This document shows positions 1 to 14,936 of a stretch of 64,000 nucleotides of DNA, in pieces; within the stretch, counting starts at the first letter, position 1, and every line of letters begins with the position of its first letter. The notes under the pieces were generated by a model, which had not been told where the DNA came from, ran no database searches, and saw nothing but the letters and a program-made list of their open reading frames with translations. Both the position numbers and the translations under genes were made by a program. This DNA is from Lachnospiraceae bacterium 28-4 (GTDB lineage Bacteria > Bacillota > Clostridia > Lachnospirales > Lachnospiraceae): assembly GCA_000403275.2 (NCBI GenBank), contig KE159598.1, positions 741,236-805,235 on the forward strand, read 5' to 3'.

Positions 1-3000
1 TTGTTAGTGGATCAGGAACATGCAATAACAGTAAGGCATTGCTTGAAAGACTTTTATAGAAAAAGAGCTTCATCAATTATTCTTGTAGTTGTCATAGATG
101 GAATTAGCAAAGAGACTTCTGCCTTGCCAGCGGATAAAGAGGAAAGTGCATTTGTCTATTTGAACTTGGAGGAAAAAGTAGAATCTGTAAATGAAATTCA
201 TTTTTTGGATTGCAAGTTAGAGGCATTACAAAAGGCTTCCATGTTTGGGTATGGGAAATGTTATGCAAATGGAAGCTGGAAAGAGTTAAAATTTTCTGGC
301 AGAGAGGATTTGGATAAAAATAGTGTTTGTGATTTGCAATTTGATCTAATTGATGCCAGGGATAAAACGTTTGCTGGATTTTCCGGAAGTCCTATATATG
401 ATGAGGAATGTTCTTTTGTTATTGGATTGATTTTACAAGAAGAATGTGCAGACCATGAAGCAATTTATATAGAAGGGATTAGTGTTAGTTCTCAGAAAGA
501 TTTTTTTGAAAAACATGATATTGTTGTTAATAATACGAATCTGATAAGAAAGAAAACAGGAGAAAGAGCAAATGCCCTGCAGATGACAGATTGCTATATT
601 ACCGGCGTATCCGATACAATAGACGAATTAAATAATATTATCTTAGATAAAATCGTTGCTTTACATCGTGAAGGGTACTGGGAAAGGGCATTGTCCGAAC
701 TGAAAGAACAGATTCAATTACAACAAGGGGATGTCCGGACATCGGATGAGATAAAGGCTAAATTCCTGCTTCAGCAGGCTATGTGGATTTTAGAAGACAG
801 TCATAATATTTCTGCGGCAAGTAAGATATATCAAAAGGCAGTTCGTTTCTGTGAAAGTTTAGATACAAAAGTTTTTCTTGCATTGCGGGCATTTTATTCA
901 GGGGAATCGAGCGCGAGGAAATTGTTAGAGCCGATAGATTCTCAGTCGTCTTTTCATGCTTATATGCAGATTTGTGTAAATCAAAGGGATGGAAAAGCTG
1001 CAATTAGGGCATATGAAACATATAAAGATATTTATTCGTGTAATAGCAGGACATGGTATTGGGTATCCATTGCTAATCTTTTAAACTGTGATTTTTTAAA
1101 GGCAGAAGAGTTTTTAAAGAAAGCGATTGATGAAAATGGAGAAATATTTGATTATTGTATCCTTAGAGCATTGATTCAGTATTGGAAGACAATTCCTATA
1201 GAGGCATTTCATAGAATAGATTCTATTTATCCGGGTTTATATTCGGAAGGAATTTATTTTTTTAAGAATGATATCAGAACGCTCATTATGGATGTGGTAA
1301 ATGATTTTAAATTGGCATATCAAAAAGCAGACAGCGTTGGTAACAAAAAGCAGAAAGAACTAGCGCTTGTTTGCTGGATTAATGCGCTTTCAGTGGATAA
1401 TCTACTATTTTCAAAGGTTATGGAACCATTGGATTTATTAAAGAAAGTTAATCCTTATCATGTAATTGCATTGATGGTAGATGTATTATGCGGCAGGGTT
1501 TCTCAGGATGAAATATATGAAAAGCGGTTAAAGGCGCTAATAAAGAAAGAAAAGAACCCAATGGGATATATTTATACTCTGACAGAGTATTTTATAAAGG
1601 TAAATGAAGATGCTAAGGCCAAATCCCTTTTGTTTGAGCAGGAACAAAATTTTAAAAAATTTTCATGCATGGAATATTGGTATATGCAGATTGCCTATTT
1701 GGAAAAAGATGCGGAAAAGAGGAGATTGTTTGCAAACAAGGCTAATAAGGAATCTTCGATGAGTGAGATTCAGAAGAAGAGAATTTGCTGTATGTTTGCG
1801 TTGGGTTATGAAAAAGATGCATTACAGCAACTGGAATCCTTATATGACGATACAAAAGAACTACATGATTTAATGAATCTTATCCGATATAGTGGGAAAC
1901 AGCAGAAGTGGGATGTTAATCTGAGATATGCAAAAATCTTAGAAGTGGAACATCATAATCCTTGTGGGTATCTTTACCAAATAAAAGCTTTTATGAAAAT
2001 GCAGAAATTTGCAGAAGCTTATACATGCATTCAAAAAGTTGAACAATTAAATATTGCAGAGTTTGTTCGCCAAATACAGGAGGATAAGCTTACAATACTT
2101 GAAAAAATGGGGGAATATGACAAAGCAATTTTAGCAGGTGAGGAAATGTTTTATAAAGAACCGTCAGAATCCTTTGCACATAGGCTTGCGAACTTATACA
2201 TAAGGAGAGGAAAAAAATCTGACGCGATACAGGTTTTGGAAACTGCGGACAAATATGCGCCATTGTCATTGTCTGGGTATCAGCGGTTGAGTGGGTTATA
2301 TCACCATATAGATACACAAAAGTCGTTAGATTATGCCCGGAAATCGGTAGAGGTTTCTAATCATTCTCCGTCAGTTGTGTCTTGGGCTGCCATAAACGCA
2401 GCTGATATCAGTATGAGCAATATTATGGATGATTATTGGAAAGAGTTGATGGAAAAAGGACTTGATAAAAGCCCTTTTAAAACAATAGGTACAGAAGAAT
2501 TGATAGAGATGATCCATAAAAATGATGAGCATCAAAAAGACTTTGAAATGCAATTCCATAAGGCAGAAATTCCGATTCATATTTTGTTGGATGGGAAAAA
2601 CAGCGCATTATTGTCGGAAGTTTTTTATAATAATTGGCACAACGCAGCTTCTTATTTTAAAATATCTTTTGGTGGACATATTGCAGGAAAAAGAGATACA
2701 AAAATGGATAAATTGATTTTGGATTATACTTCCTGTCTTTTGCTGCAGGAGTTAGATGTATTAGAAACATTGGCATCGCATATTTCGTTCATTTATGTCC
2801 CTTCTAATATTCATCCTGTTATTATGGATGAGCAGGATAAATTGTCTTCTGGACAATTGGATTTGTTGGAGCATAAAGAAAAGGTAATGAATCACTGTAT
2901 AAAAACGCTAAAATTGCAGTGTGTGGAAGAAATTGTGCCTGATAATTTAGAAGATGTTAATGTTTTAGAACGCTCAAAAGCTATTATGAGATATACGGCA

Positions 3001-6000
3001 GAGCAAAATAGGGCGTTTTGGATTGACAACGGAAGGACAGATGAATCTGCTGTAACTACAGACGAAGTGTGCGCTGTTTTATCAGAATACGGCTATATCT
3101 GCGAATATGATTCAGATACAGTTCGTAAAGAAAAAGTAATGTCGTTGAAAGAGTCGAAAAGTAAGATATTTGTAGATATATTGGTACTGGAGGAATGGTA
3201 TAAAAATGGAATTTTAGATGATGTGAACGAGTGCTTTGAGATTATACTTTCGGTTCAGCAACAAAAAGTAGTAGAAGGAGAGCGTATTAGCTGGAATAAA
3301 AGAAAAGAAATTTATAATAAACTGGAAAAATTGAGACTTGTCTTAAATAAAATAGCAGAAGACGGAAAATTAAAATGGTGCGTTGACGCTGAAAAAGAAG
3401 AATGGAATTGGAAGTATAGCAATTTAATAATTTCTGCCATTACAACAATGCAAAAAGGTATCGCATATTGTGTAGATGACCGATGTATGCAAAGCTATGG
3501 AGAAATAAATCATATTCCTGTTTATGGTTCTATGGATATTATTCAGATGATGTATAAGTGCGGATGGCTCGCAGAACAGAAATATTTAAAAATATGCAGG
3601 GAATTTATCACCAAAAAGAATGGTTTTGTAATCATAGATCCTTTAATTGTATCTCGTGCTTTACAAACATCTGAGGTGGACTCTGGGAAAGTTTTGGAAT
3701 CAAAATTGCTTACTGATATACGATTATTTTCTGAGCAATCCTTTTATCTGCTTGAAAAATATAGTGGCATTTATCAGATAGGAGTTCATCTTTCAGAACG
3801 AAATTGTTATAGTATGCTGCATTTAATGTCAGTAAGAAGCATTATCGAGGAAATTTGGATTTCCAGTATGGAATTAGAGAAAAAAGTAGCCTGTTCTAAT
3901 TGGGTCATATATGAATATTTCAGAATAGGAGAAATTCTTGATTCAACGAAAGATTCCGATTTGCCAGAAGACCCTTTCATTATACAGTCATATTTTTATT
4001 TGATTTTTCAAGGGATGCTTTTTGTTTCTGACAGAGATATTGTTCCCCAATACTATGATTGGCTTTTTTCTGCTATTTCCCATAGTTTGGGAAAAAATCC
4101 AGTGTTGTTAGACAAAATATTAGAACTGATCATACATGAAGTTCATAGTATTTTATGTGATGCAAATAAGAAAAACGAGTTGTATTATGTTTATATGGAG
4201 CGGACAATAAGCATGGGCATAAATTATTTACCGGAAGATTTATCTCAAAAACTATTAGAAGATAACGAGATACAATCCATGTTTGAAAAATATTTTGTGA
4301 ATACAGTGCGAATTGGTGAAAACTTTTGTATTCCGTCTGAAATTTTTGAATGTTGGATGAATGAAATATTAATGAAGGAAGAAAATGTTGAGGTAAAAAG
4401 AGAATTTCAGGGAAGGGAATTCCTTGTTTCATGGAGATATGAGTTGCCGCTGTGGCCTTTGCTAAAGGTATGTTGGCTTGAAGAAGGTGCTGAATTGTCT
4501 TATCAACTATTTTATGAACCTGGGGAACGTCTGTATCACAGTAATGTACCAATAAGGATAAAAGAAGCGAGGAGAGCATATGAGTTTCTTGGCCGTGACC
4601 TTAATGTGGATTTGATAGAGGAAATCAGCGCTGAGAATTATAGAAAAACAGCAGATTTTATAAGCATAGGCGTTCAAACAGATGTTTCTTATACTAGCCA
4701 GCAAATTAAGTTGATTATAAAAAATGGATTTTTGTTTGATAAAGGGGCAAGGCGATATATTTTGCCGGGGAATGTATCCTATTTTAAACATTTTTATGAT
4801 TTTGGGAAAGATTTGATATATGATGATAAGGACGTTTGGTGTGCCATACCATTGGAAATGGAAGAAAAATGTAATTGTGGAATGTCTCTTAATCCTGTTA
4901 GAAGGTTACATTATCTTGAGTATTTGATGCAGAATGAAACAAATCGAAATATTGATGAATTTTGTTGTATGTTTGAGTTCTTGGAAGGTGGTAACTGTTG
5001 TGCTTATGGGAAAGTATATTTTGACATATTGAAAATTATATATGCAGCCATGCAAGAAATAGAATTTTATTTTGCAGAACCAATGCAGAATAAAATTATC
5101 TGGACATATATCTGGACTGATAAGCTTTATGAAGAACTTATTTTACAACTCCAGATGGGAACATTTACTTTGGATAAATATCAAAATGCGTTAAGCAAGT
5201 ATGTAGATCAATTAGAGCAGGGTTTGGAGGAGAACAAAGATGTTGGTAGTTTAGATATTATTCATCCTGATAAAATTGATGTTATGCGAATTGGCTTGCT
5301 TGGTTCGGTGGAGTTGTGTTTGAAATATTGGGGGAAAAATAAAGATGAAGAAATAAAAGGCATGGCAAAAGCCATGCAGGATGGTTTGCATATTTGGTTG
5401 AAATCGGAAGATGCATTAATAGAATTCATAGTTTCGCAGGAAGGAGCAAAAAATGAATGGAGAACTTTTCTTGCCAAAGATTATCGAAAGGAATTAAATG
5501 AACTTCAAAAATTGGTATTTGGTAAAGGAGAGGATTGTATAGGCATAGAAAATGATTTCTTAGAAATAAAAAAGATATTAACGAAAAAGGAAATTGAGGT
5601 GACGGACAAATCAATCATTTATTTGGGATGCTTGAATATGCCTAACGATAAAATTGGTAAAGCATTAGAAGGCATACTTGAGAAATTTTATCTCAATATG
5701 GATATTATGCACAAAAGCGAAGACTATGCAATGGCTGAAGTTATTCTTTCAAAATTGCCAGAGGATTATGGTCAACAGTTTCGGAGAGAATGTATGGCAA
5801 AATTGATAGATAGGATGTTACAAAATACAAGTGACTGGAAAGAAATCTTTGAAAGTATAATGTATTTGTTTGGTGATAATCTTGATTTACATATTGAGTT
5901 TTGGGAAAAGGTTGCGGATGGCATAAATAGTATGATCAGCACGGAATTAGTAGAATGGCTTAGCAGGCTTCAATTATTATTGCCATTAGAATTGGGACAA

Positions 6001-6060
6001 CGGCTTTATCACGCTAAAGTGCGTTTGATTAATAAGAAATTTGAAATTAATATCATGTAA
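1..6060 (+). CDS. Giant trypsin-like / TPR / PIN-like conflict protein (5' partial)
   Basis: The frame is open for 2019 codons from the first base, so the true start probably lies upstream. The first visible residues already match the region just before the catalytic histidine of trypsin-like peptidases (ITVRHCLKD, His14), and GFSGSP (Ser128) matches the serine motif. Residues ~205-860 are helical repeats of TPR type. Around residues 905-925 the stretch LILDYTSCLLLQEL (Asp908) and around 1157-1180 YCVDDRCMQSYG (Asp1159/Asp1160) followed by a GSMDIIQMM-like segment resemble the first and last acidic motifs of a PIN nuclease fold. The C-terminal ~850 residues are unassigned. The gene is A+T-rich, has no internal lesion, and ends 10 bases before repeat copy 1. 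The likely role is a multi-domain sensor/effector of a bacterial conflict system (inference). The TPR call is firm; the protease and PIN calls are by motif only. Confidence 0.6.
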   Translation: MLVDQEHAITVRHCLKDFYRKRASSIILVVVIDGISKETSALPADKEESAFVYLNLEEKVESVNEIHFLDCKLEALQKASMFGYGKCYANGSWKELKFSGREDLDKNSVCDLQFDLIDARDKTFAGFSGSPIYDEECSFVIGLILQEECADHEAIYIEGISVSSQKDFFEKHDIVVNNTNLIRKKTGERANALQMTDCYITGVSDTIDELNNIILDKIVALHREGYWERALSELKEQIQLQQGDVRTSDEIKAKFLLQQAMWILEDSHNISAASKIYQKAVRFCESLDTKVFLALRAFYSGESSARKLLEPIDSQSSFHAYMQICVNQRDGKAAIRAYETYKDIYSCNSRTWYWVSIANLLNCDFLKAEEFLKKAIDENGEIFDYCILRALIQYWKTIPIEAFHRIDSIYPGLYSEGIYFFKNDIRTLIMDVVNDFKLAYQKADSVGNKKQKELALVCWINALSVDNLLFSKVMEPLDLLKKVNPYHVIALMVDVLCGRVSQDEIYEKRLKALIKKEKNPMGYIYTLTEYFIKVNEDAKAKSLLFEQEQNFKKFSCMEYWYMQIAYLEKDAEKRRLFANKANKESSMSEIQKKRICCMFALGYEKDALQQLESLYDDTKELHDLMNLIRYSGKQQKWDVNLRYAKILEVEHHNPCGYLYQIKAFMKMQKFAEAYTCIQKVEQLNIAEFVRQIQEDKLTILEKMGEYDKAILAGEEMFYKEPSESFAHRLANLYIRRGKKSDAIQVLETADKYAPLSLSGYQRLSGLYHHIDTQKSLDYARKSVEVSNHSPSVVSWAAINAADISMSNIMDDYWKELMEKGLDKSPFKTIGTEELIEMIHKNDEHQKDFEMQFHKAEIPIHILLDGKNSALLSEVFYNNWHNAASYFKISFGGHIAGKRDTKMDKLILDYTSCLLLQELDVLETLASHISFIYVPSNIHPVIMDEQDKLSSGQLDLLEHKEKVMNHCIKTLKLQCVEEIVPDNLEDVNVLERSKAIMRYTAEQNRAFWIDNGRTDESAVTTDEVCAVLSEYGYICEYDSDTVRKEKVMSLKESKSKIFVDILVLEEWYKNGILDDVNECFEIILSVQQQKVVEGERISWNKRKEIYNKLEKLRLVLNKIAEDGKLKWCVDAEKEEWNWKYSNLIISAITTMQKGIAYCVDDRCMQSYGEINHIPVYGSMDIIQMMYKCGWLAEQKYLKICREFITKKNGFVIIDPLIVSRALQTSEVDSGKVLESKLLTDIRLFSEQSFYLLEKYSGIYQIGVHLSERNCYSMLHLMSVRSIIEEIWISSMELEKKVACSNWVIYEYFRIGEILDSTKDSDLPEDPFIIQSYFYLIFQGMLFVSDRDIVPQYYDWLFSAISHSLGKNPVLLDKILELIIHEVHSILCDANKKNELYYVYMERTISMGINYLPEDLSQKLLEDNEIQSMFEKYFVNTVRIGENFCIPSEIFECWMNEILMKEENVEVKREFQGREFLVSWRYELPLWPLLKVCWLEEGAELSYQLFYEPGERLYHSNVPIRIKEARRAYEFLGRDLNVDLIEEISAENYRKTADFISIGVQTDVSYTSQQIKLIIKNGFLFDKGARRYILPGNVSYFKHFYDFGKDLIYDDKDVWCAIPLEMEEKCNCGMSLNPVRRLHYLEYLMQNETNRNIDEFCCMFEFLEGGNCCAYGKVYFDILKIIYAAMQEIEFYFAEPMQNKIIWTYIWTDKLYEELILQLQMGTFTLDKYQNALSKYVDQLEQGLEENKDVGSLDIIHPDKIDVMRIGLLGSVELCLKYWGKNKDEEIKGMAKAMQDGLHIWLKSEDALIEFIVSQEGAKNEWRTFLAKDYRKELNELQKLVFGKGEDCIGIENDFLEIKKILTKKEIEVTDKSIIYLGCLNMPNDKIGKALEGILEKFYLNMDIMHKSEDYAMAEVILSKLPEDYGQQFRRECMAKLIDRMLQNTSDWKEIFESIMYLFGDNLDLHIEFWEKVADGINSMISTELVEWLSRLQLLLPLELGQRLYHAKVRLINKKFEINIM

Positions 6061-6069
6061 TATTGAAAT

Positions 6070-6414
6070 ATTTGGGGGAAGAACCTTACCCCCAAATTCC
6101 CCCAAATGGAGAATGGCTATCCCCCAAATTTGAAAAATCAGAAATCGGAAATTTTAGAAGGCAAAATGAATTTTCCCCCAAAATAAAATTTGGGGGATAC
6201 GGTTGAAAAGCCGCTGGCTTAGAGCGGTCAAAAATCATTGCAAAGCCAGTAAAATACATAGTTTCGGGGATGTGCGTCCGGGACATAAAAAAAGGAAAGT
6301 TCGCAAAACAGATGAATCAGTAGAAATTTGTCGAAAACAGGCGAATAGAGATAGGAATGAGAACCCTTGTAAGTGGCGTTGGTGCGCTGTTTGCAGGGGT
6401 TTTTATTATGGAAG
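6070..6414 (+). repeat. ~340-bp non-coding repeat, copy 1
   Basis: This copy is roughly four-fifths identical by eye to 11430-11762, in the same orientation. It opens with a perfect hairpin (ATTTGGGGG, 10-base loop, CCCCCAAAT). It carries two more CCCCCAAAT motifs and a second hairpin near 6175-6196 (CCCCCAAAAT / ATTTGGGGG), and it ends in a terminator-like stem plus T tract. No convincing coding frame or ribosome binding site is present. It may be a small transcribed RNA or a non-autonomous mobile element. Confidence 0.7.
6362..6414 (+). terminator. Terminator-like hairpin closing repeat copy 1
   Basis: AACCCTTGTAAGTGG pairs imperfectly with CTGTTTGCAGGGGTT and is followed by TTTTTATT. The equivalent stem in copy 2 has compensating changes, which supports a conserved RNA hairpin. 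Confidence 0.5.
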
Positions 6415-6504
6415 GGGATTTTTTTGGACATAAATCGTTATAGAGTGAATATAATAACAGTAGTTTATGAAATAAATAATTCAAGGAATAGGAAGGGCAA
6501 TAAA

Positions 6505-7179
6505 ATGGGGAATCCAACAATTGATCGATATCTAGTAGCAAATTGCTTATATATTATTGATGAATTCAACATTTTGTATGGAGAATGGGATAAACAAAAA
6601 CTAAAAAAGGAGGCAGATGAAAATTTTAATGAAATGGATATAATAGTGAGATTGGGATATCCATTTAAACAAAATGCCCATTATACAGTAGGAGAAAGTA
6701 ACAGAGTAAAAAAATTACAAAAAGTAAACCATGATTTATACATAAGCCAAAGGGATTTTAAGATAGAGGTCAAATATTTGAAAAACTGGATTAGTTCAGC
6801 AAATACAAGAGCGGCAAGTAAAAGTTGGTCAGTGTTTCAGCAAGATTTTGACTGGCTGATGGATGAGATAGATGCTGATAATTATGGAAAAGTTGCTTTT
6901 GTAATTGGCTGGTTTAACTGTGTAGATTCATTTTCACAATTAATTCAACTGGGAAAGGGTAATGGTGCATATCCATTAGTCGATGAGAGAAAAAAGGAGT
7001 ATTTTCCATTTTTAGATACAGACAGATTGCCAACATATACAAAAGATTTAAAAATTAATTATAATATGGCTTATAAGGAACAGTTTGTTACTCCTATATC
7101 CTCAAAATATAATGGAATATATAGATGTATGTTTATTGGTGAAGAAGATGATAAATTTCATTTTGCCTTATATTATTGA
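6505..7179 (+). CDS. Putative PD-(D/E)xK nuclease-like protein
   Basis: This is a 224-residue protein. I chose the ATG at 6505 because GGAAGGG sits just upstream; the frame stays open further 5', but that stretch is repeat copy 1. Residues 75-92 (NHDLYIS...FKIEVKYL) give Asp77, Glu88 and Lys90 in the D...ExK arrangement of restriction-endonuclease-like folds, followed by an amphipathic helix (WSVFQQDFDWLMDEI). No family is recognised with certainty. It lies between the giant TPR/PIN-like protein and the HD/Hsp90-like gene and shares their A+T-rich composition, so it is plausibly the effector or partner nuclease of that locus (inference). A TATAAT is present at 6450-6455, but its -35 element is poorly spaced. 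Confidence 0.5.
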   Translation: MGNPTIDRYLVANCLYIIDEFNILYGEWDKQKLKKEADENFNEMDIIVRLGYPFKQNAHYTVGESNRVKKLQKVNHDLYISQRDFKIEVKYLKNWISSANTRAASKSWSVFQQDFDWLMDEIDADNYGKVAFVIGWFNCVDSFSQLIQLGKGNGAYPLVDERKKEYFPFLDTDRLPTYTKDLKINYNMAYKEQFVTPISSKYNGIYRCMFIGEEDDKFHFALYY

Positions 7180-7325
7180 AAATTAATAATTCAGGATAAT
7201 CATTATAATTATAGTGCGATATATGTATAAAGGAATTAGAGAATAATTGTGATGACTGGTAAATAGATGGAAAGTATGATAAAATATTTTAAATATCCAG
7301 AGAACAGAGGGAGTGTTGTATATAT

Positions 7326-8302
7326 ATGGCAAATGAAATGAATCATACAAAAGCATATTTGTTATTGCAAAAAGAAAAAGTCTGTTTTTAAGCCAAGTTA
7401 ATAAAGCGATTGAGTTTGCATCAAAGATATTGCCCATGATTACAAAAGTATTTCAGACATATATATTGCATGGTATGACACACTCTGTTCATGTGGCAGA
7501 ATATATGTATGAATTGATTGATGATGCCGAAAAGATGAGTGATTTAGAGATAGTGATGCTTATTTATGCAGCATTATTCCATGACATTGGAATGGTTGTT
7601 TCAGATAGGGAGATAGAAGAAATAAAGATAGACAAACTTTTATTGGGCAAAAGAAAATATAGCAAAGTTTTTCAAAAATATAATAATGAAAACATAGCTT
7701 TGCAGGAATGTGTGCGTCCGGTTCATGGAAAAAGGTCAAGAAATTTTCTGGAAAGAATAGATGATGAAAATAAAGAGCTGTTTTTGGTTTCAGTGGGAAC
7801 CGCTACGACTTTTCAAAATGAGCTTGCATTGATATGTCAGTCGCATAATGAAGATTTTGAATGGATTAGTAAGGAAATACATTCAGAAACTATCAAAGGA
7901 GAATATAGCTTAAACGCACAATATATAGCAGTATTGTTAAGAATCGCTGATTATTTAGATATGGATGCGCAGAGGGTTCCTCTCTATTTGTATAAGTATC
8001 TGAATCCAACGGATTATAGTGATTTGGAATGGCGGCAGCATTTTGATATAGATAATTATACAAAAATTGTTTTGGATGAAAAGACCGGTCAAAAAAAGAT
8101 CCTTTTTATTGGCTCTAGTAAGGAGCCGGCTGTACATAGAAAATTGTTAAAGTATTTTGATGATATCAATAAAGAATTGTTAAATGCGGTAAATTTATGT
8201 CAGCTTTTTGGAAAGGACATTTATTTGCTTAATGTGTACCCTCATATTATCAACAATATAAAACCGGATGGATTTACATTTCAGATTACAAATTGGAGTT
8301 GA
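7326..8302 (+). pseudogene. HD-domain part of a broken HD/Hsp90-like ATPase gene
   Basis: The natural start is the ATG at 7326, preceded by GAGGGAG. The frame MANEMNHTKAYLLLQKEKVCF stops at 7388-7390, but the +1 frame continues as SQVNKAIEFASKILPMITKV. One T missing from the run 7385-7389 explains the break. The main open segment (from ATG 7430) carries THSVHVAEYM and AALFHDIGM, the HD metal-binding signature of phosphohydrolases. The frame stops at 8300-8302. An upstream extension of the ATPase frame reads SDYKLELNYKAIT, so a second single-T loss at 8279-8281 would restore ...PDGFTFSDYKLELNYK. I read the original gene as one fused HD-ATPase protein. Two separate overlapping genes are the alternative. 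Confidence 0.6.
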
Positions 8303-8710
8303 ATTATAAAGCGATTACAAATCTATTAATGGGTGAAAATATTTATGGTGATAAAAAATATGGTTTAAGGGAAATTATTCAAAATTCCATTGATGCATGC
8401 AAAACAATGGAGGAAACTGCGCAGACGCACGAAAACTTCATCTTTCAAAAATATGAGCCGATTATTATTATCGCCTTGAATAAGGAAAAGCAAAGCGTTA
8501 CCATCTTAGACAATGGCAGTGGAATGAACGTAGAAATTTTAAAGAAATATTTTTTGAATGTAGGTGTGTCTTATTACAATTCAGATGCTTATAACTTACA
8601 AGGGAGAGAGTATTCTCCAATTGGACATTATGGAATAGGTTTTTTGTCTTGTTTTATGTTATCAGATAAAGTAGAGGTGCGAACAAAACATATAGAAGAA
8701 AATAAAATTA
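8293..8710 (+). pseudogene. Hsp90-like (GHKL) ATPase domain, 5' part, cut by IS4 element
   Basis: The frame is readable from TTG 8293 but probably continues the HD gene. It contains all the Hsp90-type nucleotide-binding boxes: REIIQNSIDAC (N box), ILDNGSGM (G1) and HYGIGFLSCF (G2). The family binds ATP and works as a conformational ATPase; in conflict loci such domains accompany nucleases and proteases. Reading ends at KHIEENKI, where the IS4 element begins. Removing the element and one copy of the duplication rejoins the frame as EENK-IIKIEFEKNSEYICL. Confidence 0.7.
8703..8710. repeat. Target site duplication, left copy
   Basis: TAAAATTA at 8703-8710 equals 10295-10302 on the other side of the element. 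The exact length is ambiguous: 8 bp if the inverted repeat starts CTCAAAC, 6 bp if it starts ACTCAAAC. Confidence 0.85.
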
Positions 8711-10294
8711 CTCAAACTTCCCACATTAAAAATGGGATTTGCTCCTTGAAAAATCAATACTATAGATCATAAAATAGCAATCAAGCAGCCGCTGAACCAT
8801 ACTCCAATGCTTTTTGCATGTACTTTGGCAGTCTCTGAACAAAGCTGGCGGTCAATTTCTCCAGCTGTTGTTCTGTGATGTGGAAATATTCCATAACGAC
8901 ACCCATTAGTGCATCTATGATAATCCTCATTGACTGACTGAAAGTGATGTCATCCAGTTCATCCATGAGACGGAAAAATAGTTCACAAATCGTTTTGTCA
9001 TCGGTATTGCACCGCTGTGTAACTGCAAGCATCATATATCGCGCAAAAACAATGGATACATGCGCAGTCAAAGCATCATAGGACAGACTCCGGCACTCCT
9101 TTACCAGATGCAGATAGGATTTACAGGTTTTGAAAAACACCTCTATATCCCAGCGTTTCCCATAAATACGGATGATTTCTTCCGCTGAGATAGCTGTGTC
9201 CGTGCTGATGATGGCAAGCCAGTCTTTTCTCTTGCCTTTGTTCCGGACACAGACGATTTTTGCCGGAATTGCTTCATCACCAACGGTTGCATCAACCGAA
9301 AGCAGGTACTTGGAGCGGCCTCTGCGCTTTTTGCACTGTTTATGGATTTCTTTGATGCTGTATCTGCCACCCTGATAGCCATATTTGATTTTACTGCTTT
9401 TCTTAACCATTGCGATTGTGTCCAATTCGCAGTTTGTCTTTAAGGCGGTGATGGTCTTGGGGGATGAAAACCAGCTGTCGAACAGCACATATTTTGCAGA
9501 AACTCCGGATGATTGTGCTGCTCTGATCAGGTCAATCAAGACTTCCGTTGCTTTTCGTCTGGATTCTTTCCGCCTTTTCCCGGCAAGAGAACGTCCATCG
9601 AAGTTTGCAGCTTTGCAGAGCAGATTTTTATCATCGGCTGCCGACAGAAGACGATGGCTGATCGGAACAAAGGAGTTGCCATCGGACCATCCAAGTGTCA
9701 ACATACGGTAACCTCTCTTGTACTTCATAGAGCAGTGGTCGAAGACTTTCGCCAGAAGTTCCGTTTTATTTGAACGGGAACGGTCAAACAGGCTGTCATC
9801 AATAATGAAGACATCTTTGCGGCTCTCATCCGTAAGCGGCTTCATGAAATCGTTAATGATCCGGCTTGAAAGCAAGGTTGTGAACCGAGACCAGTTAATC
9901 TTCGCATTATTGAGGAAGCGATAAACGGTGTTCTTGCAGAATGAACCATCCAATATGCCTGTTTTCCACTGCATATACATGCTTCGATCCGAGAAAATGA
10001 GACAGAACAGATATCGAAACACTTCGATTACCGGAATCCCTTTTGCTTTACCGGCATTACATTTGAAAAGAAGTTTCCCGATTTGGAATTGGGTCATAAA
10101 ATTTATGACAGAGTTAGAAATCTCATTTCCGTTTTCAGCATTTTGTGGTATACTTGACATGGCATAAATCTCCTTGCTGTACGATTGTTATTCGCAATTC
10201 AATTATACCATCAAGTGCAGGTTTGTGCCTTTTTTATGGGCTACAGTATTGATTTTTCAAGGTTCAGCACACCAACTGGTGTGGGAAGTTTGAG
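8711..10294 (-). mobile_element. Complete IS4-family insertion sequence (about 1.58 kb)
   Basis: The element is bounded by a perfect 15-bp terminal inverted repeat, CTCAAACTTCCCACA at 8711-8725 and its complement at 10280-10294. A second inner inverted repeat of 17 bp is CCTTGAAAAATCAATAC at 8744-8760 and its complement at 10246-10262. It carries one intact transposase gene on the minus strand and is flanked by an 8-bp duplication. Intact ends, duplication and gene indicate a recent and possibly still active insertion. Confidence 0.9.
8781..10160 (-). CDS. IS4-family transposase (DDE type)
   Basis: This intact 459-residue protein catalyses cut-and-paste transposition. An acidic motif FIIDDSLFDRS lies near residue 120 and LFDSWFSS in the middle. 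The C-terminal IYGKRWDIEVFFKTCKSY has the Y-(2)-R-(3)-E-(6)-K signature of IS4-family enzymes. It is the only gene in the element and is read opposite to the interrupted gene. Its start ATG lies ~130 bp inside the right inverted repeat. Confidence 0.93.
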   Translation of the reverse strand: MSSIPQNAENGNEISNSVINFMTQFQIGKLLFKCNAGKAKGIPVIEVFRYLFCLIFSDRSMYMQWKTGILDGSFCKNTVYRFLNNAKINWSRFTTLLSSRIINDFMKPLTDESRKDVFIIDDSLFDRSRSNKTELLAKVFDHCSMKYKRGYRMLTLGWSDGNSFVPISHRLLSAADDKNLLCKAANFDGRSLAGKRRKESRRKATEVLIDLIRAAQSSGVSAKYVLFDSWFSSPKTITALKTNCELDTIAMVKKSSKIKYGYQGGRYSIKEIHKQCKKRRGRSKYLLSVDATVGDEAIPAKIVCVRNKGKRKDWLAIISTDTAISAEEIIRIYGKRWDIEVFFKTCKSYLHLVKECRSLSYDALTAHVSIVFARYMMLAVTQRCNTDDKTICELFFRLMDELDDITFSQSMRIIIDALMGVVMEYFHITEQQLEKLTASFVQRLPKYMQKALEYGSAAA

Positions 10295-10302
10295 TAAAAT
10301 TA
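10295..10302. repeat. Target site duplication, right copy
   Basis: TAAAATTA matches 8703-8710 exactly. Collapsing both copies restores the ATPase reading frame. Confidence 0.85.
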
Positions 10303-10754
10303 TTAAAATTGAATTTGAAAAAAATAGTGAATATATATGTTTGACTTATGAGGATAAATCAAAAACTCAGGGTACAGAGATCGTCTTGGATTATGAACAG
10401 TTTATGAGTATATTCCCTAATGGTATTTCGGAAATAAAAAGTTTTGTTGAAGATAATTTCTTGGATTTTGGAGTTTGGATAAAGATTTTAGTACAGGAAA
10501 AGAGCCAGCAGGAAACATATATATGCAATTTAAGAAAACCAGAAGATGTTTTGGCGGAAAAGATATGTTTGAACCAATATTTGGATGGAATAGAAGCATA
10601 TGTGGAATGTAATTATAAAGGACTCAATTTTGCAAAAAAGATAAAAGACTTAAATGGAAATAAAAGTTATTATTACAATCATATAGAAAATGAAATAATA
10701 GAAGAAGATAATAAGACCAGGTGTATCTTAAGAGTATTTTATTGCCGAATCTGA
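10303..10754 (+). pseudogene. Hsp90-like ATPase gene, 3' part downstream of IS4
   Basis: The continuation of the interrupted gene reads IKIEFEKNSEYICLTYEDK...GTEIVLDYEQFM and runs to a stop at 10754. The GTEIVLDYE segment is typical of the strand region that follows the Hsp90 G2 box. The original end may also be shifted. In another frame from about 10728 to a TAG at 10816-10818 the text reads IAESENYPPIFSGWGYSQ, which looks protein-like. Any product from this part would lack the nucleotide site. Confidence 0.6.
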
Positions 10755-10883
10755 AAATTATCCTCCCATATTTAGCGGATGGGGTTATTCTCAAGATCGG
10801 CTAAATGAGAAAGTATAGTTTTTTCATCTTTTCTATTATATAAAGATGAAAAATAGAAAGGATTATTGATAAGGAGAATTATC

Positions 10884-11219
10884 ATGTTGAAATTGGAGAT
10901 AAAATTGGATGAAAATAAAATTAATAAAGAGCAAAAATATAGTGTTTCCAGTATTTATCAAATCTTAGGTCAAGCTTTTGATAGTTATCAATTAAGAAAA
11001 GAGTATGAGCCTGATGGCACAATTGTATTTTATGGAAGCGGAAACTCTAGAGATTATGGAGCATTTGGATGTATTATTACATCTTTAAAAGAGAAATCGT
11101 GGTTTATGGATTATGTAATTAAATGGATTTGGTACAATAGTGATGATGGTGAGAATGAAAAAGATTTTGCTATTGAAGACGTTCTGTATCATTATACAAA
11201 GAGAGTGAGTGTAGCGTAA
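10884..11219 (+). CDS. Small hypothetical protein upstream of vapD remnant
   Basis: This 111-residue protein starts at ATG 10884, preceded by AAGGAG at 8 bases spacing. It is acidic, aromatic-rich and has no signal peptide or membrane segment. Visible segments include GTIVFYGSGNSRDYGAFGCI and WFMDYVIKWIWYNSDDG. I do not recognise the family. Its stop overlaps the start of the VapD-like gene (TAATG), so the two were translationally coupled. A toxin-antitoxin-like pairing is possible but unproven. Confidence 0.55.
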   Translation: MLKLEIKLDENKINKEQKYSVSSIYQILGQAFDSYQLRKEYEPDGTIVFYGSGNSRDYGAFGCIITSLKEKSWFMDYVIKWIWYNSDDGENEKDFAIEDVLYHYTKRVSVA

Positions 11220-11419
11220 TGACAAGACGTGAAGTAAAGCATTTCAAAGCACTATATTTTGACTTATGTGTAAAAGATTTAGAAAAATATTATTCTGCTG
11301 CGAATCCCAGAGGAGCTTATCGAAAGATACAGGATTATTTGCTTCAACGACAGTTTTCACATGAACAGTATTCGGGTTACCATTCACAATATAAAACAAC
11401 ATATTTATTGATTTTATGA
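11219..11419 (+). pseudogene. Truncated VapD-like protein
   Basis: The 66-residue reading is LYFDLCVKDLEKYYSAANPRGAYRKIQDYLL followed by HEQYSGYHSQYKTT. It matches my knowledge of the N-terminal half of VapD-like ribonucleases (Cas2-like ferredoxin fold; Asp in the first strand). The family usually runs to about 90-130 residues. Here the frame ends at 11419, and repeat copy 2 starts 11 bases later, so the C-terminal half is missing. It is probably inactive. Confidence 0.55.
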
Positions 11420-11429
11420 ATGGTTTAAG

Positions 11430-11762
11430 ATTTGGGGGAAGAACCTTACCCCCAAATTCCCCCAAATGGGAAAAGGTTATCTCCCAAATTTGAAAAATAA
11501 GAAACAAGAAGTTTTAAGAAGTAAAATGAATTTTCCCCCAAAATAAAATTTGGGGGATACGGTTGGAAAGGTATTGATTCAGAGCAGTCAAAAATCACTA
11601 CAAAGCCAGTAAAATACATACTTCTGGGGATATGCGACCAGGACATGAAATAGGGAAAGTTCGCGAAGCAGATGAATCAGTAGAAATTTGTCGAAATAAG
11701 GCGAATAGAGATAGGAAAAACCCTTGTGAATGGTGCGTGAATGCCATTTGCAGGGGTCTTTA
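11430..11762 (+). repeat. ~340-bp non-coding repeat, copy 2
   Basis: This is the second copy of the element at 6070-6414, with the same opening hairpin ATTTGGGGG/CCCCCAAAT, a shared internal block including GATGAATCAGTAGAAATTTG, and the same terminator-like end. It directly follows the truncated VapD-like gene. A strong promoter and a toxin-antitoxin remnant come right after it. Confidence 0.7.
11719..11762 (+). terminator. Terminator-like hairpin closing repeat copy 2
   Basis: CCCTTGTGAATGG pairs with CCATTTGCAGGG with one bulge and is followed by a short T-rich tail. Confidence 0.5.
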
Positions 11763-11803
11763 ATGTTTTATGTTGCGAAAGGAAATTAGAGACTAGAAAT
11801 AGG

Positions 11804-11832
11804 TTGAATTCATCCTATAAATTGGATATAAT
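11804..11832 (+). promoter_or_regulatory. Sigma-A promoter of the phd-doc remnant
   Basis: TTGAAT at 11804-11809, a 17-base spacer, and a perfect TATAAT at 11827-11832. The antitoxin start codon is 24 bases downstream, with an AGGAGG ribosome binding site between. Confidence 0.75.
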
Positions 11833-11855
11833 AAAACTATCAGGAGGTATGGACG

Positions 11856-12098
11856 ATGACAATAAATACAAATACAATGGTTTCTATTACGGAAGCAAAT
11901 CAGAACTTTTCAAAAGTAGCACGATTAGTGGATGAACATGGAACAGCAGTCATTCTAAAAAATAATGTACCAAGATACCTTGTCATAGATTTCAGCAAAG
12001 CTGAGCATGATGCTGTTGCGTCAAATGAAGATGTATTGAGTATATCGAAACGATTAATTGAGAAGAATAAGGAATCTTATGAGGTGCTTGCAAAATGA
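11856..12098 (+). CDS. Phd/YefM-type antitoxin
   Basis: This 80-residue protein starts at ATG 11856 behind CAGGAGG. VSITEANQNFSKVARLVDEHG and ILKNNVPRYLVID are the classic N-terminal Phd/YefM DNA-binding fold, which represses its own promoter and neutralises a Doc or RelE-type toxin with the C-terminal tail. It overlaps the next frame by ATGA (12095-12098), the usual coupling of antitoxin and toxin. The gene looks intact although its toxin is not. Confidence 0.85.
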   Translation: MTINTNTMVSITEANQNFSKVARLVDEHGTAVILKNNVPRYLVIDFSKAEHDAVASNEDVLSISKRLIEKNKESYEVLAK

Positions 12099-12388
12099 TA
12101 AAGCTGACAAAAGAACAGATGCTATTGCTTCATACTCAGTTAATAGAGACTACCGGAGGAAGCGATGGGATTAGAGACATGGGTCTGCTTGAATCTGCAT
12201 TAGAAAGTCCTTTCCAATCTTATGGTGGAGAAGAATTATATCCAAAAAAGGTGGAAGATTTTGTGGAAGCATTAGATATTTCGGCGCATGAACCGGAAAG
12301 GCGGCCTTCCAAACCGATTATTCCGTTAGTTACTAATATAGGGGAAATACGTAAGTTTATGGGAATGGAGAATAGAGAAAATGAATGA
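12095..12388 (+). pseudogene. Truncated Doc toxin fused to the tail of an unrelated antitoxin
   Basis: The first ~47 residues (IKLTKEQMLLLHTQLIETTG, SDGIRDMGLLESAL, GGEELYP) are the N-terminal part of Doc, a Fic-fold kinase that phosphorylates EF-Tu. The catalytic HPFxxGNKR loop and everything after is missing. The frame then runs into KKVEDFVEALDISAHEPERR and PIIPLVTNIGEIRKFMG, which is not Doc. Its stop overlaps the start of the broken acetyltransferase gene, the position expected of the antitoxin for that gene. I infer a deletion that joined two toxin-antitoxin operons. The product is not expected to be toxic. Confidence 0.65.
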
Positions 12389-12822
12389 TTGCATAGCAGT
12401 AAATATTTAAGATATGCTTAAAGCAATCGGAGAGGAGGAATTATTAAGACTTCTTTCCGATTTTTCGTGTCCATTAAATAGGGAAGTGGAGGATTTTGTA
12501 CGAAATAAATCTATTGATTTTGCACAAAGGAAACTTTCCATTACATATCTTGTTATGAAGAGAACAAATGAGGCGAAAAATATTCTTGTAGGGATTTATA
12601 CGTTATCTCATAAGGCTATTAAAATTGCGGATTCCAATATTAGTAATACAACTCGTAAAAACTGTTGAGATATGCAACTTTGGATAAGGATACCAATAGA
12701 TACAATATTTCTGCATTTTTAATTGCACAGTTTGGGAAAAACAATGCAGTACCAGAAAAATATTCAATTACTGGAAACGAATTAATGGATTTAACGTTTG
12801 AGTTGCTGAAACATGTTCAATA
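12381..12822 (+). pseudogene. Broken GNAT-type acetyltransferase (possible toxin)
   Basis: The start is ATG 12381, overlapping the previous stop. An in-frame TAA at 12408 interrupts MNDCIAVNI-*-DMLKAIGEEELL, most simply a former CAA. A second lesion is the loss of one A in the run 12657-12661: restoring six A joins NTTRK to KLLRYATLDKDT. The combined text (SIDFAQRKLSITYLVM, LVGIYTLSHKAI, YNISAFLIAQFGKN) has GNAT strand order. The 3' end is cut at about 12820, where a different gene begins. The order antitoxin tail-GNAT resembles acetyltransferase toxin-antitoxin modules. Confidence 0.6.
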
Positions 12823-13175
12823 TTGCGCTGGCAACAGCAGAAAAGGGAGTTCCTTATGTACGGTATGTAAATGCCTATTATGAGAATGGAGCGTTTTATG
12901 TTATTACCTATGCACTTTCAAATAAAATAAAACATTTAGAAAACAATCCTGTGATTGCAATAGCCGGTGGATGGTTTACCGCACATGGCAAGGGGATAAA
13001 TTTAGGTTATTTTGGAAAGGAAGAAAACCATAGGATTGCAAAGAGGCTGAAAGAAGTGTTCTCTGAATGGATTGATAACGGGCATACTGATCTTGAGGAT
13101 GAGAACACGGTTATTTTATGTGTGGAATTGACAGATGGGCTTTTGCTTTCACATGGGACAAGGTACGAGTTTTAG
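12813..13175 (+). pseudogene. Pyridoxamine-5'-phosphate-oxidase-like flavin protein, 5' truncated
   Basis: The frame from ATG 12813 reads FNIALATAEKGVPYVRYVNA, FYVITYALSNKIKHLENNP, GEWF-like GGWFTAHGKG and HGTRYEF. This is the split-barrel FMN-binding fold of the PNPOx family, at 120 residues instead of about 140-150. No ribosome binding site precedes it and the upstream sequence belongs to the broken acetyltransferase, so the N-terminus was probably lost at the junction near 12815-12822. A short expressed form cannot be excluded. Confidence 0.55.
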
Positions 13176-13202
13176 GCTTTCAATTTCCGGAGGGATTTTA
13201 TT

Positions 13203-13682
13203 ATGAAATTTCAAAGAACAGATGGCAAAAATAAAGATTTTATAGAAAACTGTAGGCTTCTTGATATGGATCTGGACTGACGTGTCGGAAAAAAGATAGA
13301 AAGAGACAAATACAAAAAATATAACCAGTTGGATGAAATTAAGGAAGCAATCGTTGTGTATGAAGGGAAGCGGGTAATTGGCGGCGGAGCCATCAGAAGA
13401 TATGATGATGAAACGATAGAATTGAAGCGGGTGTTTGTACATACGGAATATCAGGGACGGGGCATAGGGAGCAGGATTGTTTCCCTGTTGATGGAATGGG
13501 CCGTAGAACTGGGATATAAAAAAATGGTTCTGGAAACCGGGGAGTTATTGGCTGAATCCTGCGCCGTATATAAAAGGCTGGGTTTTCAGGTGATCCCGAA
13601 TTATGGTCCGTATGAGGATATGCCGGAATCATTGTGTATGGCAAAGGATTTGAAAAGCGGGAGGCGGGCAGATGCGGGATAA
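13203..13682 (+). pseudogene. GNAT acetyltransferase with in-frame stop
   Basis: ATG 13203 follows GGAGGGA and opens MKFQRTDGKNKDFIENCRLL. A TGA at 13278-13280 interrupts the frame after 25 codons; a CGA to TGA change would explain it. Beyond the stop the same frame continues as KYNQLDEIKEAIVVYEGKRV, RVFVHTEYQGRGIGSRIVSLL (acetyl-CoA loop RGIGSR) and AVYKRLGFQVI to 13682. A truncated protein could start at TTG 13329 and retain the acetyl-CoA site but not the first strands. Confidence 0.65.
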
Positions 13683-14154
13683 AAATTTTAATATGCAGCT
13701 AAGGCGGGCGGAATGCCCGGTAAAGGTTGCGGAGATCGTGGAGAAGACAATAAGGGCCGTCTATCCCCATTATTATCCTTCTGGGGCGGTACAGTTTTTT
13801 CTGGACCTGCATAACGAACAGAGGGTAAGGGAAGCGCTTGCCAGGGAAGATATTTATTTTGCGGAGGTGCAGGGGGAAATTGTGGGAACCGGGAGTATCT
13901 GGGGGAATGAGATCTGCAGGCTGTTTATCTTACCGGAATACCAGGCAAAGGGTTATGGAAACAGGCTGATGGATTTCCTGGAAGATATGGTTTTCAGGAA
14001 ATATCATGCAGTACATATTGATGCGTCTTTTCCGGCGGAAAGTATGTATTTAAAACGGGGATACCGGATAAAAACCTATGAGAAAATTGAAGCAGGGGGC
14101 GGGGACTATCTCTGTTACCATACAATGGAAAAGGCGGCAGGTGGAAAGGGATAA
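13672..14154 (+). CDS. GNAT family N-acetyltransferase
   Basis: This 160-residue protein starts at ATG 13672, overlapping the previous gene by 11 bases, with GGGAGGCGGG just upstream. LFILPEYQAKGYGNRLMDFLE gives the acetyl-CoA pyrophosphate loop (QAKGYG), and AESMYLKRGYRI the C-terminal helix-strand of the fold. The substrate cannot be read from sequence. It lies in a tight co-directional run of small enzymes. Confidence 0.85.
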   Translation: MRDKNFNMQLRRAECPVKVAEIVEKTIRAVYPHYYPSGAVQFFLDLHNEQRVREALAREDIYFAEVQGEIVGTGSIWGNEICRLFILPEYQAKGYGNRLMDFLEDMVFRKYHAVHIDASFPAESMYLKRGYRIKTYEKIEAGGGDYLCYHTMEKAAGGKG

Positions 14155-14174
14155 AGATTTTCAGGAGGGAACAG

Positions 14175-14936
14175 ATGGATAAATGGTTTACGGTTGACAG
14201 GATAGATGAGGATACTTATATCATCAGCGAATACCGGCATTGGGAGGAAACACATTGTTATCTGCTGAATGGTTCCGGGCGGAGTCTGCTGATCGATACG
14301 GGGCTTGGGATCTGTAATATTTATGATGAGGTGGTGAAGCTGACAGACCAGCTGGTTACGGCTGTTGCCACGCATATCCATTGGGATCATATCGGAGGGC
14401 ATAAATATTTTCCGGATTTCTATGCCCATGAAGAGGAACTGGGGTGGCTGTCGGGCGGGTTCCCTTTGTCTATGGAAACGGTCAGGGGCATGGTAGTTGA
14501 CCGTTGTGAACTGCCGGAAGGTTATGATGTGGGCAGCTATGAGATGTTCCAGGGGAGGCCGTCCGTGGTTCTGCGCGGTGGGGAAGAGATTGACATTGGC
14601 GGGAGGATGATAAAGGTGTTTCATACGCCGGGACATTCACCGGGGCATATGTGCTTTTGGGAACCGGGGCGGGGGTATCTTTTTACAGGGGATCTGATCT
14701 ACAAAGATACCTTGTTTGCATATTATCCATCTACAGATCCGGGAGCTTATCTTTCCTCACTGGAAAAGATGGCGCTTCTTCCTGTGGAAAGGGTGTTTCC
14801 GGCGCACCATTCCCTGGATATCCAGCCGGAGATTATCGGCCGTATGAGAGATGCTTTCCAGGGATTGAAGGAAAGCGGGAAACTGCGTCATGGGAGCGGG
14901 ACTTTTGATTACGGAGACTGGGCGGTCTGGCTGTGA
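14175..14936 (+). CDS. Metallo-beta-lactamase-fold hydrolase
   Basis: This 253-residue cytoplasmic protein starts at ATG 14175 behind AGGAGGG. The metal motif THIHWDHIGGH (HxHxDH), then HTPGHSPGH and FTGDLIYKDTLF provide the His/Asp ligands of the glyoxalase-II-like branch, and PAHHS near residue 215 the last His. The likely reaction is hydrolysis of a thioester or lactone-type substrate, which is not identifiable. Its stop overlaps the start of the next gene. Confidence 0.85.
   Translation: MDKWFTVDRIDEDTYIISEYRHWEETHCYLLNGSGRSLLIDTGLGICNIYDEVVKLTDQLVTAVATHIHWDHIGGHKYFPDFYAHEEELGWLSGGFPLSMETVRGMVVDRCELPEGYDVGSYEMFQGRPSVVLRGGEEIDIGGRMIKVFHTPGHSPGHMCFWEPGRGYLFTGDLIYKDTLFAYYPSTDPGAYLSSLEKMALLPVERVFPAHHSLDIQPEIIGRMRDAFQGLKESGKLRHGSGTFDYGDWAVWL

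Follow-up and report, generated by a model that had tools for sequence, protein, structure and literature searches.

A candidate gated nuclease-protease pair with a TPR/PIN-like receptor in a cassette array at tsf in Lachnospiraceae bacterium 28-4

The operon at the window edge

The stretch of DNA discussed here (the window, 64,000 nucleotides in length) comes from Lachnospiraceae bacterium 28-4 and corresponds to G000:C1:741236-805235 of its 4.28-Mb genome; G-numbers denote genomes, G000 being the organism's own, and L-numbers denote fetched loci, among which L012 and L009 are own-genome stretches that include DNA upstream of the window. When open reading frames (ORFs) are listed on both strands of window 1-14000, three genes are found on the + strand, together with an IS4-family insertion sequence (IS) and some small genes. 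In an initial annotation these three had been described as co-directional and A+T-rich, as encoding domains of the kind found in conflict systems, and as forming one system. The description is sound, in that all three lie on the same strand with a G+C content of 0.30-0.34, as against 0.478 in the upstream tsf gene, and the region is rich in defence genes; the domain calls were mostly right, but the proposal of a single system was wrong. Very probably the three genes come from three modules. The first of them (gene 1) looks like the protease half of an anti-phage operon, with the task of unlocking a DNA-cutting enzyme, the other half being a gene for a metallo-β-lactamase (MBL) fold protein that was missed by the initial annotation because it lies just upstream of the window edge. 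The other two, a PD-(D/E)xK-like gene (PDxK below) and an HD-CE/Hsp90-type gene, are very probably separate modules in a row of swappable defence cassettes, the HD-CE/Hsp90 gene being broken. The features that matter for gene 1 and its operon are as follows.

L012:16708-17295: helix-turn-helix (HTH) gene, start of the operon, outside the window
L012:17285-18013: DUF6036 nucleotidyltransferase (NTase) gene, second in the operon
L012:18038-19180 (G000:C1): MBL-fold gene, third in the operon, just upstream of the window
L012:19177 on: start of the trypsin-like gene (gene 1), overlapping the MBL gene by 4 bp
Window 1..6060, + strand: trypsin-like/TPR/PIN-like gene (gene 1), 2039 aa, last gene of the operon HTH - DUF6036 NTase - MBL - gene 1
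Window 1..430, + strand: trypsin-like domain, with GFSGSP at window codons 126-131
Window 1054..2289, + strand: TPR-type repeats, with matches at window codons 352-394 and 703-763
Window 2494..2616, + strand: HTH_upstream_double_PIN-like segment (weak, below cut-off)
Window 2716..2901, + strand: candidate PIN domain 1 (weak match to PF20698, PIN-TPR-GreABC)
Window 3157..3570, + strand: candidate PIN domain 2, from motif reading only (VDIL ... YCVDDR ... IPVYGS)

The reading frame of gene 1 is already running at the first base of the window and stays open to 6060 with no internal stop; it begins 60 bp (20 codons) upstream of the window, so that the whole gene occupies L009:1441-7560. Adjacent genes of the operon overlap or stand 24 bp apart, and the order HTH - NTase - MBL - trypsin is identical in L012, L014 and L015, the family names of the first three genes being taken from the near-identical proteins of L014. 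L014 (genome G028, the sole other match among 61 genomes) and L015 represent the only two other genomes in which the collection scan found relatives of the trypsin-TPR gene. The MBL protein itself is matched by the PADLOC models for LmuA (9.8e-72) and, less strongly, Avs1a (3e-65).

Support for the domains of gene 1 is uneven. Over its N-terminal 220 aa it matches Trypsin_2 (E 7.8e-5; 23.9 bits, where the Pfam cut-off is 27.6) and the PADLOC model RT-Protease_XI (E 7.7e-6), and alignment with comparator proteases (A6) shows that it keeps both the histidine (TVRHC) and the serine (GxSGSP) expected of such an enzyme. TPR_2 is matched above its cut-off when the first 920 aa are searched (E 9.2e-7, 29 bits), and under it (25 bits) when the whole window protein is used. 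The trypsin-like GFSGSP motif and TPRs recognised by the initial annotation are thus borne out, while the PIN-like motifs it also proposed are plausible, with profile matches that are weak and under cut-off: following the TPRs, and in the order that would be expected, come matches to PF24407 (HTH_upst_double_PIN; E 7e-4 on a 99-aa sub-region, 0.047 on the whole window protein) and then to PF20698 (E 0.14, profile positions 1-63). The second candidate PIN piece matches no PIN model, giving only Med14 (0.0096). Neither a Walker A pattern nor a P-loop Pfam match is found in gene 1, and Pfam gives no match to a GreA/B-C domain there. In searches of PDB sequences at E up to 1, the trypsin part had no match and the TPR/PIN region a single chance-level one, to a lectin (0.36); PHROGs at E 0.05 gave nothing for the TPR/PIN region or PDxK, and the trypsin-TPR-PIN core had no match in plasmids or viral contigs. 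A profile scan with PF24407 found it in 0 of 398 phylum genomes, but also in 0 control genomes, and is hence uninformative.

Isoleucines in the MBL loops and the nearest known systems

The published precedent for such a gene pair is the work of Tuck et al. (Science 2025; PMC12799240), who report that in both Hachiman and AVAST a nuclease is unlocked once a trypsin-like domain has cleaved the MBL protein at isoleucines that sit in two loop insertions; in PflHamM the sites are I118 and I218, and cleavage yields a DNase. In the MBL protein encoded next to gene 1 there is an isoleucine at both sites, I139 and I240, with a spacing of 101 that is comparable to that in PflHamM, and both isoleucines are kept in the MBL proteins of L014 and L015. 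Its two loops are 46 and 64 residues long, as against 34-36 and 32-38 in three ABC-3C-linked MBLs; in caspase-linked MBLs they are 17-18 and 47-49.

More can be learnt from relatives on plasmids, for which there are 72 records, 11 of which were fetched. Their MBL genes neighbour a gene for a NACHT-trypsin protein (L123), an Avs1b-type protein with avs1c (L124, L130, L131), HamA with a helicase (L125), ABC-3C genes (L126-L128) or caspase-family genes (L129, L133); L132 is unannotated, its neighbour reads as caspase-like, and it was left out of the alignment used below (A5). These partners are the range given by Tuck et al., as far as their main text describes it, with the addition of the ABC-3C type. 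Site 1 (I139) is Ile in all six trypsin-linked MBLs (the own protein and five from plasmids) and in none of six with ABC-3C or caspase-like neighbours, L132 included; site 2 (I240) is Ile in the same 6/6 and in 0/5 of the others. In the five ABC-3C- or caspase-linked proteins of the alignment, site 1 is occupied by Met, Thr or Phe and site 2 by Tyr or Phe, and L132 carries Tyr at site 1, with no I-S/T pair in the vicinity of site 2. The result for site 2 was also approached without an alignment: an I-S/T pair lies 39-47 residues past a conserved Trp in 6/6 trypsin-linked MBLs, and none is found in the matching tail of the six other-partner MBLs (in most of these the script took an earlier Trp, and the tail past the later one was read by eye). 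A second MAFFT mode, with 20 sequences, leaves site 1 unchanged.

Relatives of the MBL protein also occur on viral contigs, and all except L144, whose partner would lie beyond the contig, precede genes that by reading have trypsin-like features. One of them, L141 (IMGVR_UViG_2826861721_000002, 7986-10335), carries an MBL and trypsin-like pair in which both cleavage positions are Val; perhaps protease preference has changed there in step.

Comparison with described systems places the pair close to several of them and within none. With the gated MBL-trypsin pairs of Tuck et al. it shares an MBL gene that immediately precedes the gene for a protein with an N-terminal trypsin-like domain, the two inserted loops with their two isoleucines, and a defence-island setting; it differs in that the protease there is described as fused to Hachiman, AVAST, Lamassu and DRT enzymes, whereas here it is joined to a TPR/HTH/PIN-like protein that has no Walker A motif. 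The term ‘PIN’ is absent from the main text of that paper, further loci being listed in its supplement. AVAST type 1 (Avs1a/Avs1b/Avs1c, as in NZ_CP064098.1, NZ_CP114196.1 and NZ_CP039289.1) likewise has an Avs1a-like MBL and, downstream of it, a protease protein of ~1900-2000 aa, but gene 1 has no STAND NTPase, and what comes next is a repeat (R3, described below) and PDxK rather than avs1c. Membership of AVAST was considered for gene 1 and rejected: the receptor differs because there is neither a Walker A motif nor any match to the PADLOC Avs1b model, which the Priestia and Vibrio proteins annotated in the same position match at E 0. Only the ~95 N-terminal residues of gene 1 align significantly with Priestia Avs1b (29% identity, E 2e-5).

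A third point of comparison is with the TPR-GreA/B-C-PIN proteins, for which Kaur et al. (eLife 2021; PMC8195603) describe a common TPR-GreA/B-C-PIN core carrying N-terminal effectors that vary and include trypsin. Going by that description, the variable N-terminal effector and the TPRs are shared, as a PIN-type C-terminal part may be, and the differences are that here GreA/B-C is not detected, that a double PIN is possible, and that there is an MBL operon partner. In a literature search on tsf islands, HD-CE, HD with Hsp90, and MBL/trypsin/PIN/TPR, with partial coverage at the level of titles and the starts of abstracts, neither this combination nor the tsf array was recognised.

Separate modules in a tsf island

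Downstream of gene 1 the window continues with the features listed here, to which the tsf 3' end is added.

L012:8402-8512: tsf 3' end
Window 6066..6430, + strand: repeat R3, its left part with C5A3/T3G5 runs, its core at 6296-6406
Window 6505..7179, + strand: PD-(D/E)xK-like gene, 224 aa, first of a PDxK-Phd-Doc unit
Window 7242..11797: interposed block (boundaries approximate) of HD-CE/ATPase remnant, IS4 element, 117-aa/66-aa gene pair and repeat R4
Window 7430..8302, + strand: HD-CE piece (PF24391, E 9.5e-49)
Window 8293..8700, + strand: Hsp90-type ATPase piece (HATPase_c_3, 9.6e-12; HtpG, 3.5e-25)
Window 8701..10304, - strand: IS4-family element inside the HD/ATPase gene, with terminal inverted repeats, ends approximate
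Window 10305..10754, + strand: 3' remnant of the interrupted HD/ATPase gene (ORF 10185-10754 starts inside the IS end)
Window 10866..11419, + strand: two small genes, 117 aa and 66 aa, homologous to a 111/111-aa pair in L093
Window 11427..11762, + strand: repeat R4, its core at 11656-11762
Window 11856..12388, + strand: Phd-like antitoxin gene (80 aa) and shortened Doc/Fic-like gene (97 aa)

The PDxK gene belongs with Phd and Doc. Its profile finds 7 of 397 family genomes, four of them (the own genome included) over the full profile, the remaining three matches being one contig-edge piece and two fragments; in 3/3 of the other full-length loci (L093, L095, L099) the gene is contiguous with Phd, followed by a whole Doc in L095 and L099, L093 showing only the start of Doc. 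The Doc/Fic-like gene is 125 aa in both of those loci as against 97 aa in the window, where the matches to Phd (PF02604, 8.6e-5) and Doc (PF02661, 1.1e-4) both fall below the Pfam cut-offs. By blastn, window positions 7241 and 11798 correspond to points 9 bp apart in L095, the gap being 66-68 bp in L093 and L099, and it is because these flanks lie so close together elsewhere that the HD-CE/ATPase block can be said to sit within the PDxK-Phd-Doc unit. As for what PDxK encodes, the D...ExK motif named in the initial annotation is identical in the window protein and three homologues (76-80% identity), but no significant match is obtained in Pfam, PADLOC, NCBIfam or PDB (the last at E up to 1), so that a PD-(D/E)xK nuclease fold is putative and founded on the motif; a single-sequence AlphaFold (AF2) model has a mean predicted local distance difference test (pLDDT) score of 30.8, and there was no match in plasmids, phages or viral contigs.

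The HD plus Hsp90-type ATP site of the initial annotation is clear, but the gene that encodes it is broken, since its HD and ATPase pieces lie in different frames (7430-8302, and from 8293) and the ATPase ORF continues to 8772, into the end of the IS. The IS4 transposase is encoded at 8781-10160 (NF049925, E 2e-179), and the IS end recurs at seven other genome sites (96-100% identity over 63-74 bases), with further shorter or weaker copies; the 3' remnant ORF has no significant domain match. HD-CE is common, being found in 37 of 200 family genomes at E 1e-3, 19 of them above cut-off. In common with other HD-CE/HATPase proteins (PF24391) the window copy combines HD-CE with an Hsp90-type ATPase; it differs in being broken, whereas the scanned intact members are single proteins of 1032-1079 aa (1032 aa elsewhere in the own genome, L049, 1079 in L054 and 1078 in L055). 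In L058, L063, L064 and L065 the HD-CE ORF is just ~290-310 aa. At L054:7379-12441 the intact gene overlaps, by eye, a probable restriction gene and adjoins a cytosine-methylase-like gene, all co-directional, and there a link to restriction-modification is possible.

Whether the three families travel together was judged by mapping markers on the fetched loci by tblastn (E 1e-3), the kind of gene-neighbourhood comparison that the initial annotation had itself suggested, and they do not co-occur in these loci. The fetched stretches of L014 and L015 contain the trypsin-TPR gene and neither PDxK nor HD-CE; no HD-CE lies beside PDxK in L093, L095 or L099; and trypsin-TPR and PDxK homologues are absent from all 17 fetched HD-CE loci (L049, L054-L069), which, as several are short contigs and two (L068, L069) are partial matches, is evidence rather than proof. 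Of the PDxK genomes, G301 has HD-CE matches on other contigs than PDxK, and in G312 and G328 no HD-CE match was found. A role for the HD-CE/Hsp90 protein as regulator of gene 1 or PDxK was accordingly rejected.

What these modules have in common is their position. A ~240-bp repeat has four copies in the genome, all within ~16 kb of island and each 3' of a cargo module, and R2, R3 and R4 extend into a ~110-bp core that is the 3' end and terminator region of tsf, most of which R1 lacks. The left part of the repeat folds better as single-stranded DNA than shuffled sequences do (z -2.7, 1 of 200 shuffles equal), which does not show a function; Rfam at its gathering threshold gave no match for the repeat in window 1-14000, and an exact 31-base repeat pattern is absent from viral contigs. 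Matches to repeat or core, several of them short, occur in 16 of 299 family genomes. The first cassette of the own island (L012:8588-12554, 13889-14701; ~5-11 kb upstream of the window) has OloA-like (partial, 8.9e-26) and OloB-like genes, the latter split into two pieces (1e-56, 4e-24) by an ORF that, by reading, is transposase-like, and the second has a PDC-S02 (DUF1016-type) gene (1.7e-132). Elsewhere, exchangeable cargo 3' of tsf consists of PDxK (L095, L099), HTH-NTase (L100), HTH-NTase-MBL (L097), a CTD7/DUF3732 set with small genes, repeats and PDxK behind it (L093), or, by reading, a DUF1016 gene (G004, L110); in G002, a genome from the same genus, a core without the left part comes after tsf, and the ~1.5 kb seen then continues with genes that read as transporter-like. 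Several genera of the family show such a cassette hotspot at the tsf 3' end. The duplicated tsf tail is consistent with site-specific integration at an att site located where tsf ends, the alternative being that the array was formed by homologous recombination between repeats; no recombinase is tied to the repeats, and a Tn916-type integrase ~190 bp past the repeat in L014 is a lead only. A second tsf core copy stands at the end of another gene set in the same genome (L102, G028:C47), and is perhaps the far end of the integrase-bearing element beside the L014 repeat.

Some further observations concern the cargo. An HTH and DUF6036 NTase pair (91-92% identical) precedes both the Olokun-like genes (L012:8588-9908) and the MBL-trypsin genes (L012:16708-18013), in each case behind the same -35/-10 hexamers, a consensus promoter with a 17-bp spacer, and the pair is possibly an interchangeable front module, shared between cassettes, of a regulatory or addiction type. 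The two small genes of the window, which may be VapX/VapD-like, a label that neither Pfam nor PHROG supports, share 86% DNA identity with L093 (window 10884-11406 against 8395-8917), the second being shortened in the window. In G328 the PDxK-Phd-Doc unit is followed, at L099:11209-14232, by a gene for a 1007-aa protein that by reading begins in a TIR-like manner and contains a Walker A motif as well as repeats; it is a candidate for a defence gene of the STAND type.

Weighing the interpretations

The interpretation we favour, with a probability of somewhat over one half (roughly 0.57), is that window 1-6060 encodes the receptor and protease component of an anti-phage system in which the upstream MBL gene supplies the second of the two components. 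It is built on what is observed here: gene order, homology, the loops and their isoleucines, the absence of a Walker A motif, the lack of co-occurrence among the fetched loci and the repeat array. By analogy with the published relatives, the resting MBL protein would be a pro-deoxyribonuclease with its active site covered by the two inserted loops, the trypsin-like domain would cut it after I139 and I240, and the freed nuclease would degrade DNA, bringing phage replication to a halt and leaving the infected cell dead or arrested. More speculatively, the TPR and PIN/HTH-like part may sense infection and cluster or release the N-terminal trypsin-like domain, and the HTH and NTase genes may act as the shared regulatory or addiction front module. 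The careful form of the claim is that there is a gated nuclease-protease pair on a TPR/PIN-like receptor that is not a member of AVAST. A bolder version, tentative and on balance doubtful, would have an NTPase-free receptor class (TPR, HTH and double PIN) that took up the gated MBL-trypsin pair and combines RNA cutting by PIN with release of the MBL DNase, carried in a tsf 3'-end cassette platform (Olokun-like, DUF1016 nuclease, MBL-trypsin, PDxK-Phd-Doc, HD-CE/Hsp90 and small paired genes), in which every module has a repeat behind it that restores the tail and terminator of tsf, and the HTH-NTase front is interchangeable.

Several points weigh against the favoured interpretation, weak places being the absent aspartate, PIN and PD-(D/E)xK folds that are unproven, relatives on viral contigs that fit less closely, and the narrow spread of the trypsin-TPR fusion. 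In alignment A6 the catalytic Asp position of the gene 1 protease is Ala (Glu in L015, read separately), and because of this the protease may be weak or inactive; the Asp is present in 4/5 comparator proteases, the fifth (L123) having Glu. Trypsin and PIN assignments both lie under Pfam cut-offs, in the first candidate PIN piece the unrelated model DALR_1 (0.034) outscores the PIN model, and an AlphaFold model of the PIN region, from an alignment of two sequences, has a mean pLDDT of 34.5. A 600-aa query from the central region finds 1 of 398 phylum genomes, namely the own one, and in both relatives the trypsin-TPR gene is broken (two frames in L014, insertions in L015). As to the MBL, in the second MAFFT mode site 2 is in register in only 3/6 trypsin-linked proteins (own, L130, L131), this loop being hard to align, and just one of six viral-contig relatives, L143, shows Ile in both positions; the protein partnered with it matches Avs1b (3e-273), and the site 2 of L143, out of register in the second MAFFT mode, is taken from the alignment-free check. 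The others have I/V (L142), V/V (L141), V at site 1 (L144), and T (L145) or V (L146) at site 1 with no site 2, so the link between the isoleucine sites and a trypsin partner holds for the plasmid group and is looser outside it.

The rival explanations have to be set against the same evidence. That the system has decayed, the protease having lost the catalytic Asp and selection no longer acting on what remains of the operon, is unlikely; it gains from the non-conservation of that residue, from the broken copies in L014 and L015 and from the broken state of neighbours here (the OloB-like gene, the HD-CE gene and Doc), but the 2039-codon frame and the four-gene operon are open in this genome, the protease His and GxSGSP are kept, and the L014 and L015 proteins are 91-99% identical. 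It is rather improbable that the large protein acts alone in the manner of the TPR-GreA/B-C-PIN proteins, with PIN cutting transcripts, trypsin as a back-up death effector and the MBL incidental: trypsin is indeed listed among the N-terminal effectors of the TPR/PIN core by Kaur et al., and the weak PF24407 and PF20698 matches do come in the expected order, but no GreA/B-C domain is found, and in each of the three genomes that have the trypsin gene the operon also contains an MBL gene upstream of it, whose product retains both isoleucines. The initial idea, a three-gene system with the HD-Hsp90 ATPase as regulator of both the trypsin/PIN protein and the PD-(D/E)xK nuclease, has very little left in its favour beyond adjacency and shared orientation in one genome and the conflict-type character of all the domains; the trypsin gene occurs without the others in 2/2 cases, PDxK without adjacent HD-CE in 3/3 and HD-CE without both in 17/17, and the HD-CE/Hsp90 gene is itself broken, in a block that splits the PDxK-Phd-Doc unit, so for this locus, as far as the fetched loci show, the idea is already refuted.

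Our verdict is that the true contexts of these genes are probably a receptor variant of the protease-unlocked DNase and a cassette array at tsf. If the favoured interpretation is true, a protease-unlocked DNase can be served by a receptor lacking an NTPase engine, TPR and PIN domains alone doing the sensing and clustering, which would show what the triggering of such a DNase really needs, and the trypsin effectors of TPR-PIN proteins would gain a concrete substrate. For the family as a whole, the tsf 3' end would be a place in which to seek unknown defence modules, and the content from tsf to the next repeat can be listed for each genome.

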